A stretch of DNA of 23,053 nucleotides from a virus. Shown in pieces: positions 1,151-20,709 of the stretch (its first letter is position 1; each line of letters starts with the position of its first letter). The notes under the pieces were generated by a model. The model did no database searches. It was not told the DNA's origin and saw only the letters and a list, made by a program, of their open reading frames with translations. Location: IMG/VR virus record IMGVR_UViG_3300031841_001463, positions 1 through 23,053 of that record. One strand, 5' to 3'. The position numbers and the translations under genes are program-made.

Positions 1151-1318
1151 ATGGCAACTAGAAAAAGTGCTAAGTCAATGCAATCTGATAAAGCTAGAGC
1201 CAGTGTCACTAAGATGACACCAGGTGATGATCCGGTTGTATTCAAACGTTGTGGATATTGTGGTGATAAAAAACCAGAATGTCGCAAGCAAAAGAAGTGT
1301 CTTAAAGATCTTCTTTGA
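1151..1318 (+). CDS. Small basic Cys-rich protein, 55 aa, possible zinc knuckle
   Basis: A 55-codon ORF from ATG (1151) to TGA (1318). The N-terminal half is Lys/Arg/Ser-rich; the C-terminal half holds C-G-Y-C followed by C-x5-C (residues 34, 37, 44 and 50), a layout that could bind one zinc ion. With its high basic content, a nucleic-acid or protein-binding role is possible but not shown. No Shine-Dalgarno is seen. The TGA stop is part of the first helix of a structured RNA element (1316-1361), so translation termination and the fold may affect each other. It lies between psbA and the capsid gene, a place where cyanopodoviruses carry host-derived or regulatory small genes. The family is not recognised. 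Confidence 0.6.
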   Translation: MATRKSAKSMQSDKARASVTKMTPGDDPVVFKRCGYCGDKKPECRKQKKCLKDLL

Positions 1319-1417
1319 AAATCAGTAAAGCTGACAGGAGGGTGCAAGTCCCTCCTTTTCAATTGGTTAGAGCCGGTACGCCGATACCTCTAGCCGTCTA
1401 GACGGTGGGAATAGACC
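1316..1417 (+). promoter_or_regulatory. Dense structured RNA leader upstream of the capsid gene
   Basis: Hand-folding gives a compact chain of helices. First is a 46-base three-way junction: TGAAA (1316-1320) with TTTCA (1357-1361), enclosing TCAG/CTGA (1322-1325 with 1331-1334) and AGGAGGG/CCCTCCT (1336-1342 with 1350-1356, loop TGCAAGT). Next is a hairpin of GGTTAGAG (1365-1372) with CTCTAGCC (1388-1395), bulge 1373-1375, and GTA/TAC with loop CGCCGA. Last is the perfect palindrome CCGTCTAGACGG (1394-1405), which competes with GTCTA/TAGAC (1396-1400 with 1412-1416). The GAGGG-TGCAAGT-CCCTC arm resembles a tRNA T-arm with one loop change. It may be a processing site, a weak terminator (short T run 1357-1359), or a stabilising 5' UTR for capsid mRNA. 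Structure is seen; function is inferred. Confidence 0.5.
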
Positions 1418-1471
1418 ACAAAAAATTTTTCAAACGTTTGAAGCTTGTCTAAATAATTTTACCTTTATACA

Positions 1472-2608
1472 ATGGCTTTTCAATCTTCTGTAAACCCGGC
1501 TCAGCTTACGCGCCCGGGTCAGTCTAACTCTGCGGGTGATGCCCGCGCTCTCTATTTGAAACTGTTCAGTGGAGAGATGTTCAAAGGTTTCCAGCATAAT
1601 GCAATCGCTCGCGATCTGGTTATGCGTCGGACCCTGACTAATGGTAAGTCCCTGCAGTTCATCTACACTGGTCACACAAAGGCTGAGTACCACACTCCTG
1701 GTAACAGCATTCTGGGTGATAGCAATGGTGCACCGCCGGTGGCTGAGAAGACCATCACGGTGGATGATCTGCTGATCTCCAGTGCATTCCTGTACGACCT
1801 TGATGAGACTCTTTCTCATTACGACATGCGTAGCGAGATCTCTCGTAAGATCGGCTATGCTCTGGCTCAAAAGTATGATCGTCTGATCTTCCGTGCTATC
1901 ACCCGTGGTGCACGTGCTGCTTCTCCGATCACTAAGACTAACTATGTTGAGCCCGGTGGTACGCAGATCCGTGTTGGTACTACTGCTAACGCTTCTGATG
2001 CTTATAATGCTCAGAACCTGACCACTGCTTTCTTTGATGCTGCTGCAGCTCTCGATGAAAAAGGTGTGTCTCAAGATGGACGTGTTGGTGTGCTCAACCC
2101 TCGCCAATACTATGCACTGATCCAAGAGGTCGGTAACAACGGTCTGATCAACCGCGACGAGCAAGGTGCTGCGCTGCAAAGCGGCCAGGGCATTGTTGAG
2201 ATCGCTGGTATCAAGATCTACAAGTCCATGAACATTCCGTTCTTCTCTCAGTATGGTACCAAGTATGGTACTGGTTCCGCCACTAACCCTGGTATTACCG
2301 ATCCCGGTAACACAGGTTCGTTCGTGTCTGAAGCTGTTGAAGATGCTGCTAACGATGTTACTGGCATCAACAATGAGTACGGTGAAGAGACCGAATTTGC
2401 TAACAGCTGCGGTCTGATCTTCCAGCGTGAAGCTGCTGGTTGTGTGGAAGCTATCGCTCCTCAGGTGCAAGTCACCAGCGGTGATGTCTCCACTATCTAC
2501 CAGGGTGACGTGATCCTGGGTCGTCTCGCCATGGGCGCTGACTACCTGAATCCCGCTGCTGCTGTTGAACTGTTTGCTGGCACCGCTACCAAGCCTGCTG
2601 CATTCTGA
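1472..2608 (+). CDS. Major capsid protein (T7 gp10-like)
   Basis: Encodes the 378-residue T7-family major head protein, which builds the icosahedral capsid with an HK97-type fold. Recognition rests on the overall sequence: the N-terminal MAFQSSVNPAQLTRPGQS leader, the GEMFKGFQHNAIARDLVMRRTL segment, the YHTPGN and DDLLISSAFLYDLDE blocks, and the RKIGYALAQKYD helix, all characteristic of cyanopodovirus and T7 gp10 proteins. The length is close to T7 gp10A. No shifty sequence or extended second frame suggests a 10B form. The gene has no clear Shine-Dalgarno; the ATG follows TTTATACA. It is GC-richer with many C-ending codons (31 of 60 in bases 2101-2160), like psbA and unlike the internal virion genes, which fits strong expression. 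It is preceded by a structured leader and followed by a strong terminator, so it can be a nearly separate transcript. Confidence 0.95.
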   Translation: MAFQSSVNPAQLTRPGQSNSAGDARALYLKLFSGEMFKGFQHNAIARDLVMRRTLTNGKSLQFIYTGHTKAEYHTPGNSILGDSNGAPPVAEKTITVDDLLISSAFLYDLDETLSHYDMRSEISRKIGYALAQKYDRLIFRAITRGARAASPITKTNYVEPGGTQIRVGTTANASDAYNAQNLTTAFFDAAAALDEKGVSQDGRVGVLNPRQYYALIQEVGNNGLINRDEQGAALQSGQGIVEIAGIKIYKSMNIPFFSQYGTKYGTGSATNPGITDPGNTGSFVSEAVEDAANDVTGINNEYGEETEFANSCGLIFQREAAGCVEAIAPQVQVTSGDVSTIYQGDVILGRLAMGADYLNPAAAVELFAGTATKPAAF

Positions 2609-3560: not shown

Positions 3561-6100
3561 TGGCAGCAGTAACACAATCAATTCCTAATTTTCTTGGTGG
3601 AGTATCCCGCCAAAATGATGACAAAAAATTATTGAACCAAGTAACCGAGTGTGTTAATGGATACCCTGATGCCACTTATGGTATGCTGAAACGTCCAGGC
3701 ATGGAACACATTAATGTTCTAAAGAAAGCAAACGGTGATGCCTTTACGGAATCTGAACTAGATGGAGCAGCTTGGTTCTTTATTGACCGTGATGATGCTG
3801 GTTCTTATATTGGTGCTATCAAAGGTTCTGACATTTATGTCTGGACTAAAGATGACGGAACCTGGTGTACTGTAACTAATACTGGTTCAGCATATTTAAC
3901 TGGCTCCTCCCCTTCTGATTATCATTTTCGTAGTGTTCAGGATGTAACAGTTATTACTAATAAAACTGTTACCGCTGCAATGCAGGCAGCAAATACTTAC
4001 GTATCTAACTCTGTTGGTACGGTAAAATTAATTTCGCTTACTGCAGATTTAGATTATTCTGTAACTATTCAAGGTGAAACCTCTACAGTTACAGCCCAAT
4101 CTTCAACGACGTTTGACGATTTTCTTATTTATGATAGTGGGTCTATAAATGCTAATCATCATTTAGTAGATGCAATTCATGCTACAATTACTGCACAGCA
4201 AGCAGCAAGTAACTCAGACTTTGATGGTAAATGGTATCTAGAGGCATATACAAATAGTCTTGTAATTAAGCGGGCATCAGGTGCTAATGAAATCATTACT
4301 GATTATACACAACCGACTACCACCCCTTTAGCTTTTACTCTTTCTGCTAAAGGTGGTCCAGGTAATATCGGTATTGAGTCTTTTCTTGATAGCGTTACAA
4401 ATTCTAGCGATCTCCCTGCAGAATCTTTTACTGGACATCGTATTACAATCCTAAATTCAGCTTCTGAAGAGGATGATTATTATCTAGAGTTTAAAGCATT
4501 TGATACTACTTTAAATCGTGGTAAAGGTTTTTATGAAGAAACTATTGCACGTGATATTTCTCCAGGTCTAGATGCATCAACTATGCCTCACCAACTGGAG
4601 AACACTGGCGCTACTACTTTTAATTTTAAACCTATTACATGGGCAGACCGCTCTGCTGGTGATGATAATAGCAGTCCAATCCCTTCGTTTATTGGATATA
4701 CTATCGCTGCAACTTTCTTCTACAGTGATAGGCTAGGTATTTTGTCTGAAGATAATGTATTCCTTGGTGTCGCTAATGATGCGTTTAATTTCTTTCCAAA
4801 ATCTGCTTTAGTACAGATTGATTCAGATCCTATTGATCTAAACGTATCTAGTATCAGACCCGTTGTTTTGACAGATGTCGTACCATCTCCACAAGGTCTT
4901 CTTATATTTAGCTCTAGACAGCAATTCCAACTGTATGCAGCTAGCTCTGTAACTCTGACCCCTAGAACATCAGTAATCAGATCACTTGCTAACTATGAAA
5001 TGTCTACGATTAGTCCCGTAGATGTAGGTACATCCGTTGTATTTGTAAATACAGTGCCTGGTGTCAGTAAACTATTTAGTATGCAGCTAGGAGAAATTGA
5101 ACAGAATCCTACTGTCATTGACATCAGTAAAGTTGTATTTGAATGGATCCCAGAAACAGTAGATAATTTAGCAGCTAGCGCTCAGAATTCTGTAGTGGTT
5201 CTTATTGATAGTGAATCATCTTATATGTACTTGTACCGTTATTATAATAATGGTGAACAGGATCTATTCCAAGCTTGGACGAAGTGGCAACTGCCTGGTA
5301 CAATCCAATCTGCAAATATTATTGACGATGATTTAATTATTGTCAGTCAACATGAAGATGAGTACACTCTTAATAAGATTACTTTAGACCAAATCCCAAC
5401 AGGCAGTGTTACCGCTAAAACCAGCACTACAGATGGTAATCCTTGTCTAGATATGTTTGCTAGACCTGTCAGCCCTGGTGGTGGTGTTAGTGCAGTGGTG
5501 TATGATGAACCAAATGACATCACCAAAATCTACACACCTTATACACCAATTAGCGACAAGAAAGCTATCATGTTTTTGACTGTTCCTGAAGCTGATGTAG
5601 GTACAGCAGCAGAGATTGACGCTGACGCTGGCTACTATGCAGAAGCTTTAGAACGTACTGAATCAGGAACAAATTACCGTTACTTTGAAGTGAAAGGTAA
5701 TTTTACAGATTATGCAGATGGTATTGTAATCGGTTATGGTTATGATTTTGAGGTAACTTTACCTAAATTTTATTATAGAATTAATCAGGCTGTAGCTGAT
5801 TTTACAGCTTCATTATCTATTGCTAGGGCTAAATTTTCTGTAGGTAGAACAGGTGCAATTCAATTTAAATTAAAAGCTGAAGGTTCAAACGAGTGGAAAC
5901 CTGTTGAACATACAGCTGATGCAGATTATTACGCTGCTGATAGTAATCCTGTTAAAAATGAACGCCAATTCATTGTACCCATCCATCAACGTAATACTAA
6001 TTTTGAACTAAAAGTGACAAGTAATTTTCCGTACCCTGTGTCGTTGGTGGCAATGACGTGGGAAGGTAACTATTCTCCACGATTCTATAGGAGGAAGTAA
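3560..6100 (+). CDS. Tail tubular protein B (T7 gp12-like nozzle)
   Basis: Encodes an 846-residue nozzle protein, slightly longer than T7 gp12 (about 794). The start MAAVTQSIPNFLGGVSRQ and the following LLNQVTECVNGYPDATYGMLKRPG block are the hallmark N-terminus of the gp12 family. The C-terminal region (FELKVTSNFPYPVSLVAMTWEGNYSPRFYRR) also matches the family. Most of the chain is predicted beta-rich with many Ser/Thr, as expected for the beta-propeller nozzle that sits below the gp11 ring and holds the fibres. It starts on the stop codon of gp11 (TAATG), and its own TAA overlaps the next ATG in the same way; a strong AGGAGG just before 6100 lies within its last codons. Codon use is AT-rich. 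No truncation is seen. Confidence 0.95.
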   Translation: MAAVTQSIPNFLGGVSRQNDDKKLLNQVTECVNGYPDATYGMLKRPGMEHINVLKKANGDAFTESELDGAAWFFIDRDDAGSYIGAIKGSDIYVWTKDDGTWCTVTNTGSAYLTGSSPSDYHFRSVQDVTVITNKTVTAAMQAANTYVSNSVGTVKLISLTADLDYSVTIQGETSTVTAQSSTTFDDFLIYDSGSINANHHLVDAIHATITAQQAASNSDFDGKWYLEAYTNSLVIKRASGANEIITDYTQPTTTPLAFTLSAKGGPGNIGIESFLDSVTNSSDLPAESFTGHRITILNSASEEDDYYLEFKAFDTTLNRGKGFYEETIARDISPGLDASTMPHQLENTGATTFNFKPITWADRSAGDDNSSPIPSFIGYTIAATFFYSDRLGILSEDNVFLGVANDAFNFFPKSALVQIDSDPIDLNVSSIRPVVLTDVVPSPQGLLIFSSRQQFQLYAASSVTLTPRTSVIRSLANYEMSTISPVDVGTSVVFVNTVPGVSKLFSMQLGEIEQNPTVIDISKVVFEWIPETVDNLAASAQNSVVVLIDSESSYMYLYRYYNNGEQDLFQAWTKWQLPGTIQSANIIDDDLIIVSQHEDEYTLNKITLDQIPTGSVTAKTSTTDGNPCLDMFARPVSPGGGVSAVVYDEPNDITKIYTPYTPISDKKAIMFLTVPEADVGTAAEIDADAGYYAEALERTESGTNYRYFEVKGNFTDYADGIVIGYGYDFEVTLPKFYYRINQAVADFTASLSIARAKFSVGRTGAIQFKLKAEGSNEWKPVEHTADADYYAADSNPVKNERQFIVPIHQRNTNFELKVTSNFPYPVSLVAMTWEGNYSPRFYRRK

Positions 6101-7569: not shown

Positions 7570-10176
7570 ATGGCACGCATTCAATACCAACCTGCTTCAA
7601 GGAGCAGAGGTTTTAAACCACGGCAAATAAGTACAGCAGGTATCAACCGGATGCGTGAAGAAAGCAACCGGATGATAGCTAATATGGAGCGCAATCGTCA
7701 GGCTGAAAAAGAACAGCGTGATCGTGAGCTTCAAGCATTAAAAGAAGATAATGCATATACTGCTAACGTTCAAAGGCAAAACTTTGAAACTCAAATTCAA
7801 AACTTACAATCTGAACGTAACCAAGCAACTCTTGGTCTCCAGGTTGAACAAGCAGAAGCCCAAGCTCAGCAGGCAAAAACTCAAAGTATTTTAAGTATTG
7901 TCGGTACTTTAAGCCAAACAGCTGCATCTGCTGTAAAAGCAATCGACGCTGAACAGCTTAAAAAAGACACAGCTACAGCATACGCTGAATTTTATAAAAC
8001 CCCTGTAACACAACTTACACCTGAACAGCAGCAACGGGTTGAACAGTATAGGGATGCTGAAAATCTTCAATTGCAAGGTGGTGTCGCACTTAATGCCAAT
8101 ATTGCTGCTGATGATGCTCAAAGCAATCAAAACCCTGCCATAACTGCACAAAGTTATGCCGCTAACCCTGCTTTAAATAGCAGAAGTAGAAAAATTTACG
8201 ACAACCTAATAGCGTATAGAGCATATACTACTAATTATCAGCAACGTACAGCAGACACAGAATACAAATACACTGCTGCTGATGGTAGACAATTTACAGG
8301 TGCTCAAGCCCTTAGTGATCCATATTTTGCAGGAGAGTTACAGCGGATAACTTTAACCGATGTGGTAGAGTATTTAGGTGTTACGGAGCCTATGCATCTG
8401 GCTCAAGCACAAGAGAAAATTTTTCAATTTAACCAAACTACCACAGCTCAAGCAAGTAGCGTAGCACATGAAAATGCTGTCGAAATTGGTTTAGAGCAGG
8501 CGTCACAGCTTGTTATGAATGGCAGCACCGCTAATGAGATTCTTTTTGGTTTTAACACAGTTGCTCACCTAAAAGGGAATGCTGCTGCCCATGACTTACT
8601 TCAAAAGACAGTTGAAAACCCAAACACTTCACAGGAAGTTGTTGATAGAATTGGTGAAACAATTATCGAGGGTAAAAAATGGTCTGAAGGTTGGGATAAC
8701 CGATGGCTGCCTGCTATGCAGAAAAGGCAGCAAAACATTGTTAAAGCAGAAACAGCAGAGTATAATTATAGAAAGGAAGTATTTACCAATAAAATTCTTA
8801 ACAACATTGATGAAGTTACAGCTTTTATTGATGAAAACCCTAGTATCAATGGACGTGCTGTAGAAGATCAATTTACAGAACAAGGCTTCCCTGTACCTCC
8901 TGTAATTACAAAACATGTAAGTAACGCAATCAAACAAAGTGATGAGGTTACTAAAACTGTTATTGAACAGAAATTCCGGGATAACATTTTAGATGAAGGT
9001 TTTATTAATAGACTCCCTACAGTAGCGCTTAGAAAGTATGCACAGGATTTAAAGGAAGAACAAAACAATCGTAAGTATGGTGAAAACTATACTGGACTTA
9101 AAAAGAACCTTATTGGTGACGCTAGGCAGTTGACTTCAATTAACCCTGGTGGAGCTAACACTTCACAAACTTATTTAGTATATGGAAGAGCAGTCCAAGA
9201 GTATCAAGGATTTATTGACCAAGGGTTTACCCCGGTTGAAGCTGCAGGTAAGGTCAATGAACTTATCCAGCAAGCACGTGGTGGTTCTGCCGATGCTACT
9301 AATCCTTTTTATTTTGTGTCCGGCGACAACAACCGTCGGACATTCCCAAACATCGAAACTTCAGGTGCCGAACGTGCTAAACGCCGTTCTGTAATTGATA
9401 AAAAATTACTTGATCATGGTGTTGATATTCTGAACCAACCGTTTGTTACAGCTACTTCAGCTGAAATGGATGCTACATATAAATCACATCTAGAAGGTAA
9501 TACAGTTTACCCTCCTGAAATTTTAAGAGTAGCAGAGATGTTTGGTATTAAACCTTCTGAAGCGTATAATACAGTACGTGCTGCGCAAAACAAAAGCACT
9601 GGTCAAAACAAGCCACTGCTTGATCCTAACAGTTCTGTTACAAAGCTGATGGATGTAGCAAATGCTAGAGCTAGAAGGTTGATACAATCAGGCAATCCTA
9701 TGCAGATTAATCGTGCTGCTGCCGGTATGGGTGTTATTGCTTTGCCTAGACGGTCTAGCATGGGAATTGGTTCGTTTAATCCTGCTACCGTACCTTCTGG
9801 GTATGGATCGGCTATTAATCAAGCAGCACAGCAAAATAATATTCCTCCTGAAATTTTGGCAGGGTTAATTGCGACTGAAAGCAATTTCAATCCAACCGCT
9901 GTAAGTCCTGCTGGGGCTAGGGGATTGGCACAGTTTATGCCACCAACTGCTGCTGAGTTTGGTGTAGATGTTAATGACCCAATGTCTTCTATCGACGGTG
10001 CAGCACGTTACCTCAGGTATTTAATTGATTATTTTAAGGGTGATATGAATAAAGCCATTTATGCTTATAATGGGGGTATGGGTAACATTGAACGTTTTGG
10101 TGGACCTATTCCAGGTAACCAAGAAAATCAAGAATACCTAACAAAAGTTTTAACCAACGCTAACAGATTCAGATGA
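7570..10176 (+). CDS. Internal virion protein (T7 gp15 position) with C-terminal lytic transglycosylase
   Basis: Encodes an 868-residue inner-core protein. The N-terminal 110 residues are charged and Gln-rich, coiled-coil-like; the middle is alpha-helical with no recognised motif. Residues about 752-866 are a soluble lytic transglycosylase (SLT) domain: IPPEILAGLIATESNFNP with the presumed catalytic Glu770, then SPAGARGLAQFMPPTA, and the AYNGG motif near residue 832. Such domains cleave the MurNAc-GlcNAc bond of peptidoglycan during genome entry. In T7 the equivalent activity is at the N-terminus of gp16, the next gene; here it is at the C-terminus of the gp15-position protein. The start follows the gp14 stop by three bases without a Shine-Dalgarno (TTAACACATGGC). 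The stop overlaps the next start as ATGA. The domain call is strong; the gp15 equivalence is from gene order. Confidence 0.85.
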   Translation: MARIQYQPASRSRGFKPRQISTAGINRMREESNRMIANMERNRQAEKEQRDRELQALKEDNAYTANVQRQNFETQIQNLQSERNQATLGLQVEQAEAQAQQAKTQSILSIVGTLSQTAASAVKAIDAEQLKKDTATAYAEFYKTPVTQLTPEQQQRVEQYRDAENLQLQGGVALNANIAADDAQSNQNPAITAQSYAANPALNSRSRKIYDNLIAYRAYTTNYQQRTADTEYKYTAADGRQFTGAQALSDPYFAGELQRITLTDVVEYLGVTEPMHLAQAQEKIFQFNQTTTAQASSVAHENAVEIGLEQASQLVMNGSTANEILFGFNTVAHLKGNAAAHDLLQKTVENPNTSQEVVDRIGETIIEGKKWSEGWDNRWLPAMQKRQQNIVKAETAEYNYRKEVFTNKILNNIDEVTAFIDENPSINGRAVEDQFTEQGFPVPPVITKHVSNAIKQSDEVTKTVIEQKFRDNILDEGFINRLPTVALRKYAQDLKEEQNNRKYGENYTGLKKNLIGDARQLTSINPGGANTSQTYLVYGRAVQEYQGFIDQGFTPVEAAGKVNELIQQARGGSADATNPFYFVSGDNNRRTFPNIETSGAERAKRRSVIDKKLLDHGVDILNQPFVTATSAEMDATYKSHLEGNTVYPPEILRVAEMFGIKPSEAYNTVRAAQNKSTGQNKPLLDPNSSVTKLMDVANARARRLIQSGNPMQINRAAAGMGVIALPRRSSMGIGSFNPATVPSGYGSAINQAAQQNNIPPEILAGLIATESNFNPTAVSPAGARGLAQFMPPTAAEFGVDVNDPMSSIDGAARYLRYLIDYFKGDMNKAIYAYNGGMGNIERFGGPIPGNQENQEYLTKVLTNANRFR

Positions 10177-19678: not shown

Positions 19679-20025
19679 AAAAGCTTTTACTGCTTCTATT
19701 CCTTGCTTCCCCTGCTGCAGCCAATCAAATCACCCCTAATTTTACTCAGGGGTCAATGCAATCCACTACAACCACAACAATAGATATTGATCGTACAATT
19801 GAAACTAATATCTATGGTGGTGAATATTCATCATGGTCTGGAACAAACGTAACACCAAGCGGCAACATCGCAGATCCAGCGACAACCTATTCGGTAACCA
19901 ACGCTGGGGAGCAGTTTCAACTGGAGATTGTCAACCGAGCAGCAGGTCTAATCGAAGACAGTCTAGTAACAGAAACCATTCAGCAGGTTACCAACACTAC
20001 CTCCTTATCGGTCTTCTCGCAGTAA
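19675..20025 (+). CDS. Secreted or periplasmic conserved cyanophage protein, 116 aa
   Basis: Encodes 116 residues with a clear Sec signal peptide (MKKLLLLLFLASPAAA, cleavage expected after AAA and before NQIT). The mature part is a Thr/Ser-rich beta-like chain (NFTQGSMQSTTTTTIDIDR, IYGGEYSSWSGTNVTPSG) ending in TNTTSLSVFSQ. I recognise this as a family recurrent in cyanophages, with no function known to me. Export of a phage protein outside lysis is unusual; surface modification, superinfection exclusion or a virion role are all possible. It begins inside the previous stop codon (ATGA). Its last 193 bases also lie inside the open frame of the following gene, which has no canonical start closer to its own signal peptide. 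Confidence 0.85.
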   Translation: MKKLLLLLFLASPAAANQITPNFTQGSMQSTTTTTIDIDRTIETNIYGGEYSSWSGTNVTPSGNIADPATTYSVTNAGEQFQLEIVNRAAGLIEDSLVTETIQQVTNTTSLSVFSQ

Positions 20026-20483: not shown

Positions 20484-20709
20484 ATCTATTGTGTCAGCAA
20501 CAATTGCTGTCATTGCAGCAGGTGCTGCTATCACTAATCGAACTAATAATCGTATTTCAGAACTTGACCGTCGTATTGACACTTTTGAATTACGTGTAGC
20601 GACAAGCTACGTACCAAAAGAAGATTTTACAACAGCCATGTCTAAGATGGAGGATCATATGATTCGCATCGAAAACAAACTAGATCAAATTGTACTGAAA
20701 AATGGCTAA
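20476..20709 (+). CDS. Membrane-anchored coiled-coil protein, 77 aa
   Basis: Encodes 77 residues. The N-terminal 20 form a hydrophobic helix (IVSATIAVIAAGAAI) fit for a membrane anchor, followed by a charged coiled-coil-like region (NNRISELDRRIDTFELRV, then a break at SYVPKED, then MSKMEDHMIRIENKLDQIVL). The layout, one N-terminal span plus a soluble coiled coil, is that of an inner-membrane spanin or a holin-associated protein, and it lies beside the small terminase as lysis genes do in T7. No lipoprotein partner with a lipobox is visible nearby, so spanin is only a suggestion. It overlaps the upstream gene by eight bases and the small terminase by eight. Confidence 0.8.
   Translation: MIESIVSATIAVIAAGAAITNRTNNRISELDRRIDTFELRVATSYVPKEDFTTAMSKMEDHMIRIENKLDQIVLKNG

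Follow-up and report, generated by a model that had tools for sequence, protein, structure and literature searches.

Positions 1316-1419 of the 23,053-nucleotide stretch of viral DNA that we analysed (the window) contain a genuine structured RNA conserved before the major capsid protein gene (MCP), as the comparison of homologues confirms. The window comes from the genome of a T7-like cyanopodovirus, of which it is a fragment, and the leader is an RNA of marine T7-like cyanophages with a whole, shrunken or replaced tRNA at its head. We propose, with a probability of roughly 0.6, that this leader is a processing and protection module of the capsid mRNA; the cleavage, the nuclease, the protection of the mRNA and the equivalence of the class A hairpin described below are all inferred. 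The leader has three parts: a slot holding the unit E1 (1316-1362), a core made of E2, the palindrome PA and the hairpin H3 (1363-1419), and a palindrome PB (1429-1442) before the start codon. The order in the window is part of psbA, a riboswitch, small ORFs, the leader and MCP:

3-953: 3' part of psbA (Photo_RC)
963-1015: Glutamine-II riboswitch RF01704 (Rfam, 50 bits)
1151-1318: ORF upstream of the leader, with its stop codon TGA (1316-1318) inside E1
1316-1362, + strand: E1, a tRNA-like unit without a D-arm (folds, T-loop spacing, T-stem covariation, acceptor partners)
1316-1320/1357-1361, + strand: acceptor-like stem UGAAA/UUUCA of E1 (fold)
1322-1334, + strand: middle arm of E1, UCAGU/GCUGA (fold)
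1336-1342/1350-1356, + strand: T-arm of E1, 7 bp, with loop UGCAAGU at 1343-1349
1362, + strand: discriminator-like A of E1, the base before UUGG
1362/1363, + strand: predicted RNase Z-type cut A1362-U1363, inferred from the ends of complete tRNAs and the 13/14-nt ruler
1363-1395, + strand: E2, UUGG and the P2/P3 bulged hairpin (covariation in alignments A2 and A4)
1365-1372/1388-1395, + strand: P2, 8 bp
1373 and 1384-1387, + strand: internal loop C1373 / AUAC between P2 and P3
1374-1376/1381-1383, + strand: P3, 3 bp, with UACG tetraloop at 1377-1380
1394-1405, + strand: palindrome PA, CCGTCTAGACGG (= CCGUCUAGACGG), sharing two bases with P2 and one with H3
1405-1419, + strand: hairpin H3, GUGG-GAAUAGA-CCAC (stem covaries, loop GA(N)AGA conserved)
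1429-1442, + strand: loopless palindrome PB, UUCAAACGUUUGAA, between H3 and the MCP start codon
1472-2608, + strand: MCP (Gp10A-like), which the leader precedes (Pfam PF21703, E 7.5e-76)

A preliminary description of this DNA had proposed that an RNA leader of several helices, one arm of it tRNA-like, lies ahead of the capsid gene, a reading that the comparison supports. The coordinates and helices were reproduced, as was the fold of about 102 bases. This 102-base fold has an energy of -34.1 kcal/mol and a z of -2.63, which is only moderately unusual, suggestive rather than proof; the comparison of homologues is decisive. P2, P3, H3 and the T-stem all vary on both sides of their pairs, so that the check for compensatory changes did not refute the structure. 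The extent first given, 1316-1417, covers a structured region that is real but stops short, since the leader runs on to about 1419 and a further palindrome lies at 1429-1442.

A homologue of window positions 1300-1480 is found upstream of MCP in all 80 of the 80 MCP relatives fetched from IMG/VR. Matches to the core pattern and this set of relatives combined give at least 194 core-bearing loci (these counts are lower bounds); MCP comes next in 191 and the contig ends within 98 bases in the other 3. In those 191 loci the distance from PA to the MCP start is 73-139 nt among the matches listed. The leader is present in the named phages P-SSP7, S-TIP37, S-RIP1, S-RIP2, S-SBP1, S-CBP3, P-SCSP-R27W and P-GSP1, and a search of the whole P-SSP7 genome found a single copy, whose UUGG lies near position 20682 of that record. 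Among the matches listed for the core pattern in bacterial genomes, the full leader is confined to phage-like contigs that have MCP starts and were assigned to marine MAGs or, in one case, to a Prochlorococcus SAG, and the remaining matches are at the level expected by chance for an 18-base pattern. In the contigs read, the core is limited to capsid genes.

Primary sequence conservation of the core is strong. Its bulged 8+3 bp hairpin, already recognized by eye, was found at 1365-1395 and covaries. In 30 nearly gap-free core sequences 92 % of the cells pair, both sides change in 8 pairs, and the covariation is 0.398 compared to 0.134 for shuffled and at most 0.100 for slid controls. The corresponding values for 60 sequences aligned with a covariance model, an alignment that is itself fitted to the structure, are 0.370, 0.102 and at most 0.058, with both-side changes in three of the four H3 pairs. 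Model R1, obtained with RNAalifold from a MAFFT alignment, lacked part of P2 and was replaced by model R2, built with the named structure. P3 is capped by UACG but also by UAAG, CACG and once by GAAA, indicating that stable tetraloops substitute for one another, and the strand between P2 and P3 reads C / AUAC or ACAC. H3 stems are GUGG/CCAC, GUGUG/CACAC and GCUG/CAGC, with GUCUG/CAGAC and ACUG/CAGU in more distant loci. The MFE-preferred alternative pairing GUCUA/UAGAC is broken by GAAAGA and CAUG variants while H3 covaries. A palindrome with an alternative pairing had been described here; the palindrome stands, at 1394-1405, while for the pairing the homologues back GUGG-loop-CCAC at 1405-1419 and not GUCUA/UAGAC.

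Three kinds of filler occupy the slot directly 5' of UUGG: a complete tRNA, a tRNA-like fold or the class A hairpin. Among the loci scanned, complete tRNAs fill it only in L080, L093 and L127 (Gly) and L087 (Leu), as identified by ARAGORN, and they end on the base preceding UUGG or on its first base. These four relatives, in which a complete tRNA gene abuts the core, bear out the tRNA likeness first noticed in the window, where ARAGORN itself found no tRNA gene (the criteria of a 7-bp acceptor, D-arm, anticodon arm and 5-bp T-arm are unmet). The 46-base three-way junction proposed for 1316-1361 can indeed form from UGAAA/UUUCA, the UCAGU/GCUGA arm and a T-like arm; the latter, with loop TGCAAGT, is present as a 7-bp arm at 1336-1356 whose T-stem covaries. 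E1 begins at the TGA of 1316-1318, in agreement with the overlap with the upstream stop codon reported previously. A 7-base, anticodon-like loop GTAAAGC had also been suggested and finds no comparative support, the middle arm being variable or absent (8 nt in L105 and L166). The acceptor-like stem is short and marginal when the window fold is taken in isolation, and the window T-loop UGCAAGU has a G where the second U is usual.

The E1 slot follows a tRNA ruler and its modules are exchanged. Fillers of the tRNA-like kind have a T-arm loop U[UG]C[AG]A and, where it was found, an acceptor of 4-8 bp; their middle is graded from about 40 nt, as in a full tRNA, down to 8 nt replacing the D and anticodon arms and leaving 5+7 bp. 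Some of them are plainly degenerate tRNAs (L125, L139, L198). In 47 of the 52 distinct tRNA-like leaders among the matches listed, 13 or 14 nt separate the end of the T-loop from UUGG; the same T-arm search gave 0 of 80 for class A, and 6600 shuffles yielded 11 arms, of which one lay at 13/14. In the window there are 13 nt from U1349 to U1363, equal to the tRNA spacing of 5+7+1 and as in the complete tRNAs. T-stem covariation is 0.533 compared to 0.181 for shuffled and at most 0.230 for slid controls. A perfect 5-nt acceptor partner (a strict 5-bp test) exists in 26 of 45, compared to an expectation of 7.3 (at most 14) from swapping the 3' strands. At least about 28-30 changes of E1 class are needed on the MCP protein tree, compared to 48 with shuffled labels. 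One locus (L072) was labelled tRNA-like though its upstream DNA is missing, which may shift the total by one or two; recombination of MCP with the leader would likewise inflate it. The E1 class of the window differs from that of relatives whose MCP is 95 % identical.

Class A, a hairpin with the conserved 15-nt loop CACCUCAGAGUCGGA, is the commonest filler (111 of about 180 readable loci among the matches listed). Its loop ends 11 or 12 nt before UUGG in 80 of 80 distinct leaders, again among the matches listed, and ten of its ten stem pairs covary (0.774 compared to 0.294). Class A has no T-arm and a span of 10 bp rather than 12 bp, so that tRNA nucleases may fail to cut it; it must then be cut by something else, or be a tRNA mimic of an unseen kind. 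The hairpin was seen at 1677-1713 of L002 and in many relatives, nearly always 5' of the capsid leader in the IMG/VR matches listed. Five divergent leaders (L238, L255, L302, L307 and L310) have a changed module order, with class A followed by a palindrome and then a P2/P3-like hairpin.

In the mechanism that we envisage, late transcription is polycistronic from few promoters, and E1 would mimic the acceptor/T-arm half of a tRNA and thereby recruit a host nuclease of tRNA maturation. This nuclease would most likely be RNase Z, acting 3' after the discriminator base, perhaps with RNase P at the 5' side. A cut just before UUGG would set the 5' end of the capsid mRNA, which would begin two bases ahead of the stacked hairpins (P2/P3, then H3); the stack would shield this end and may help ribosome loading. 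In other lineages class A presumably does the job of E1. RNase Z contacts the T-arm and the acceptor and cuts behind the discriminator, the D-arm and anticodon loop being dispensable, and it is inhibited by cytidines following the discriminator (PMC7479834). The base behind the predicted cut is nearly always U, and RNase Z is encoded in a Prochlorococcus genome. RNase P requires the T-loop and not the D-loop (PMC4919913). A 5'-terminal stem-loop lengthens the life of mRNA in E. coli (works cited in PMC3997798). The Syn5 RNA polymerase has two promoters in the Syn5 genome (PMC3950665), which are located at 4929 and 44797 with none near MCP at 20017; both lie far from MCP, so that processing, rather than a local phage promoter, would be a reasonable means of setting the capsid mRNA end there. 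Against cleavage stand the strict acceptor partner in only 26 of 45, the lack of a T-arm and the 10-bp span of the commoner filler class A and, in the window, the atypical T-loop (G for the second U) and the short and marginal acceptor stem.

Class A, the second class of E1, and the self-complementary palindromes remain unexplained. Among the matches listed PA reads CCGTCTAGACGG (177), CCGTCATGACGG (15) or CCGTATATACGG (2); elsewhere it is CCGTCGACGG in P-GSP1, CCGAACCGGUUUGG in S-RIP1 and CCGAAGGCCUUUGG, CCAAACCGGUUUGG and CCGUCUGGACGG in L270, L275 and L262. Its centres CUAG, CAUG, AUAU, UCGA, CCGG, GGCC and CUGG are all self-complementary, some through G.U. The sequence and length of PA differ between phages while self-complementarity is kept to the centre. 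PA is a perfect palindrome in most members and absent in a few divergent loci (L239, L250, L257), and no clearly non-palindromic intermediates were found in the main clade. Because PA uses bases of P2 and H3, PA and the full P2 are mutually exclusive within one molecule. PB is a perfect palindrome with a half-length of at least 5 in 134 of 163 distinct leaders among the matches listed, compared to about 13 % of simple shuffles, and comprises 65 distinct sequences about 33-42 nt ahead of the capsid start. The pair flanking a perfect PB is G.U in 93 of 134 (69 %) compared to 9 % expected from composition, and 32 of the 49 distinct PB cores mostly have G.U there; this tolerance points to an element acting at the RNA level. 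A palindromic centre cannot pair within its own hairpin, which makes intermolecular pairing a candidate that has not been shown. It is conceivable, though we regard it as speculative and rather unlikely, that an exchangeable tRNA mimic gets the host tRNA-trimming enzymes to excise the capsid mRNA while PA and PB let the transcripts pair mutually. If true, one leader would link how the mRNA of a DNA phage is processed, kept stable and dimerised.

Other explanations can be considered. The same cleavage would also generate a 3' end, and E1 may mature the 3' end of the upstream mRNA (psbA, small genes), perhaps with addition of CCA, while the core separately serves capsid translation and the capsid 5' end is a by-product. 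The window E1 does overlap the stop codon of the upstream ORF, and E1 stays although upstream genes vary between phages. In the main clade, however, the core always lies at most 2 bases behind the predicted cut, and the module goes with MCP rather than with psbA; we find this account improbable. Equally little weight is given to an uncut leader acting in cis, whose binding of a protein or the ribosome would control capsid translation or mRNA dimerisation, the tRNA likeness serving the binding. The self-complementarity of PA and PB despite varied sequences, the G.U flanking PB in 69 % and the conserved 15-nt class A loop, which suggests a binder, would suit such a leader; processing accounts better for the complete tRNAs found in the slot and for the exact spacing to UUGG, and three unrelated fillers need only a boundary in common.

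Palindromes and the strong primary conservation of the core could also reflect a signal in the DNA, such as a phage promoter or a site of recombination or packaging. Compensatory changes with G.U pairs and the exchange of UNCG and GNRA loops indicate RNA instead, and there is no Syn5-type promoter at the leader: no ATTGGGCACCCGTAA-like match was found near MCP, the sole 3-mismatch match in the window (at 8294) being at chance level. A DNA signal is very unlikely. Hardly credible is the idea that E1 is a functionless, decaying relic of phage-borne tRNA genes; the degenerate tRNAs of L125, L139 and L198 are what it would predict, but selection is indicated by the compensatory changes of the T-stem, by the invariant ruler and by the exchange of E1 for another conserved hairpin.

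The view that no known RNA family fits the leader withstood an Rfam search of the window, which gave none for it. At the gathering score Rfam 15 yielded only RF01704 (963-1015) in the whole window, and permissive thresholds gave nothing relevant; the class A relative L002 had no relevant Rfam match either. The leader was not described in the literature searched, which did not cover subscription papers. Judged by sequence, the RNA is a new family. Its proposed mechanism is conceptually nearest to that of plant-mitochondrial t-elements, tRNA-like sequences at which RNase P and RNase Z fix the ends of mRNAs (PMC11658184). These are tRNA-derived folds beside coding genes, at an mRNA boundary and with no role in translation; E1 fits them in position and fold, both its mRNA end and its cleavage being inferred. 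Unlike t-elements, the leader belongs to a phage of a bacterium, and E1 is cut down to acceptor and T-arm, can give way to an unrelated hairpin and is joined to a conserved stack of hairpins that precedes one particular gene. The tRNA-like 3' element of Tymovirus/Pomovirus (RF00233, Tymo_tRNA-like) shares the T-arm loop UGCAA in a weak alignment (12.6 bits for the leader against a gathering score of 40), whereas the leader has no pseudoknotted acceptor and lies in a 5' leader, not at a genome 3' end. Late mRNAs of phage T7 carry RNase III processing sites and 5' hairpins. There too a T7-type polycistronic mRNA is cut to leave a structured end, but the recognition element differs and T7 has the phi10 promoter before gene 10, where covariance model R2 found no core.

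T7-like cyanophages are a major cause of death of Prochlorococcus and Synechococcus, and the leader is conserved across these abundant viruses. It offers a concrete and testable answer to how Syn5-like phages, with two phage promoters only, boost capsid from a long transcript, and would bring the tRNA-based punctuation of mRNA known from organelles into bacterial virology. With many diverse members, it defines an RNA family suited for Rfam.

Outside the main clade, R2 gave no match in Syn5, S-TIP28, P-SCSP1g, a roseophage, a pelagiphage or T7, and in the searches run no covariance model gave a significant E-value for Syn5, S-TIP28, CRP-118 or P-SCSP1g. P60 was outside those searches, and the following resemblances, seen by eye, are leads. 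In Syn5, GGUAG..GCAGGG-UUCGAUU-CCCUGC-CUACC is followed by the P2/P3-like hairpin CCGA-UACG-UCGG and the palindrome ACCGGU. P60 (L233) and S-TIP28 (L228) have T-arm units followed about 85 nt later by a P2/P3-like hairpin with GAUACC or GAUAAC, and the roseophage CRP-118 (L223) and P-SCSP1g have a similar P3/internal-loop motif before MCP. A motif CC-hairpin-GAUA(A)C thus precedes MCP in L223, L228 and L233.

The riboswitch RF01704 sits right behind psbA, ahead of the small ORFs and about 300 bases 5' of the leader. It is likewise a cyanobacterial/cyanophage leader RNA but a separate element with a structure unrelated to that of the leader. Stretches like catggaacgggg, resembling the riboswitch region, are also seen 5' of MCP in P-SSP7 and P-GSP1.
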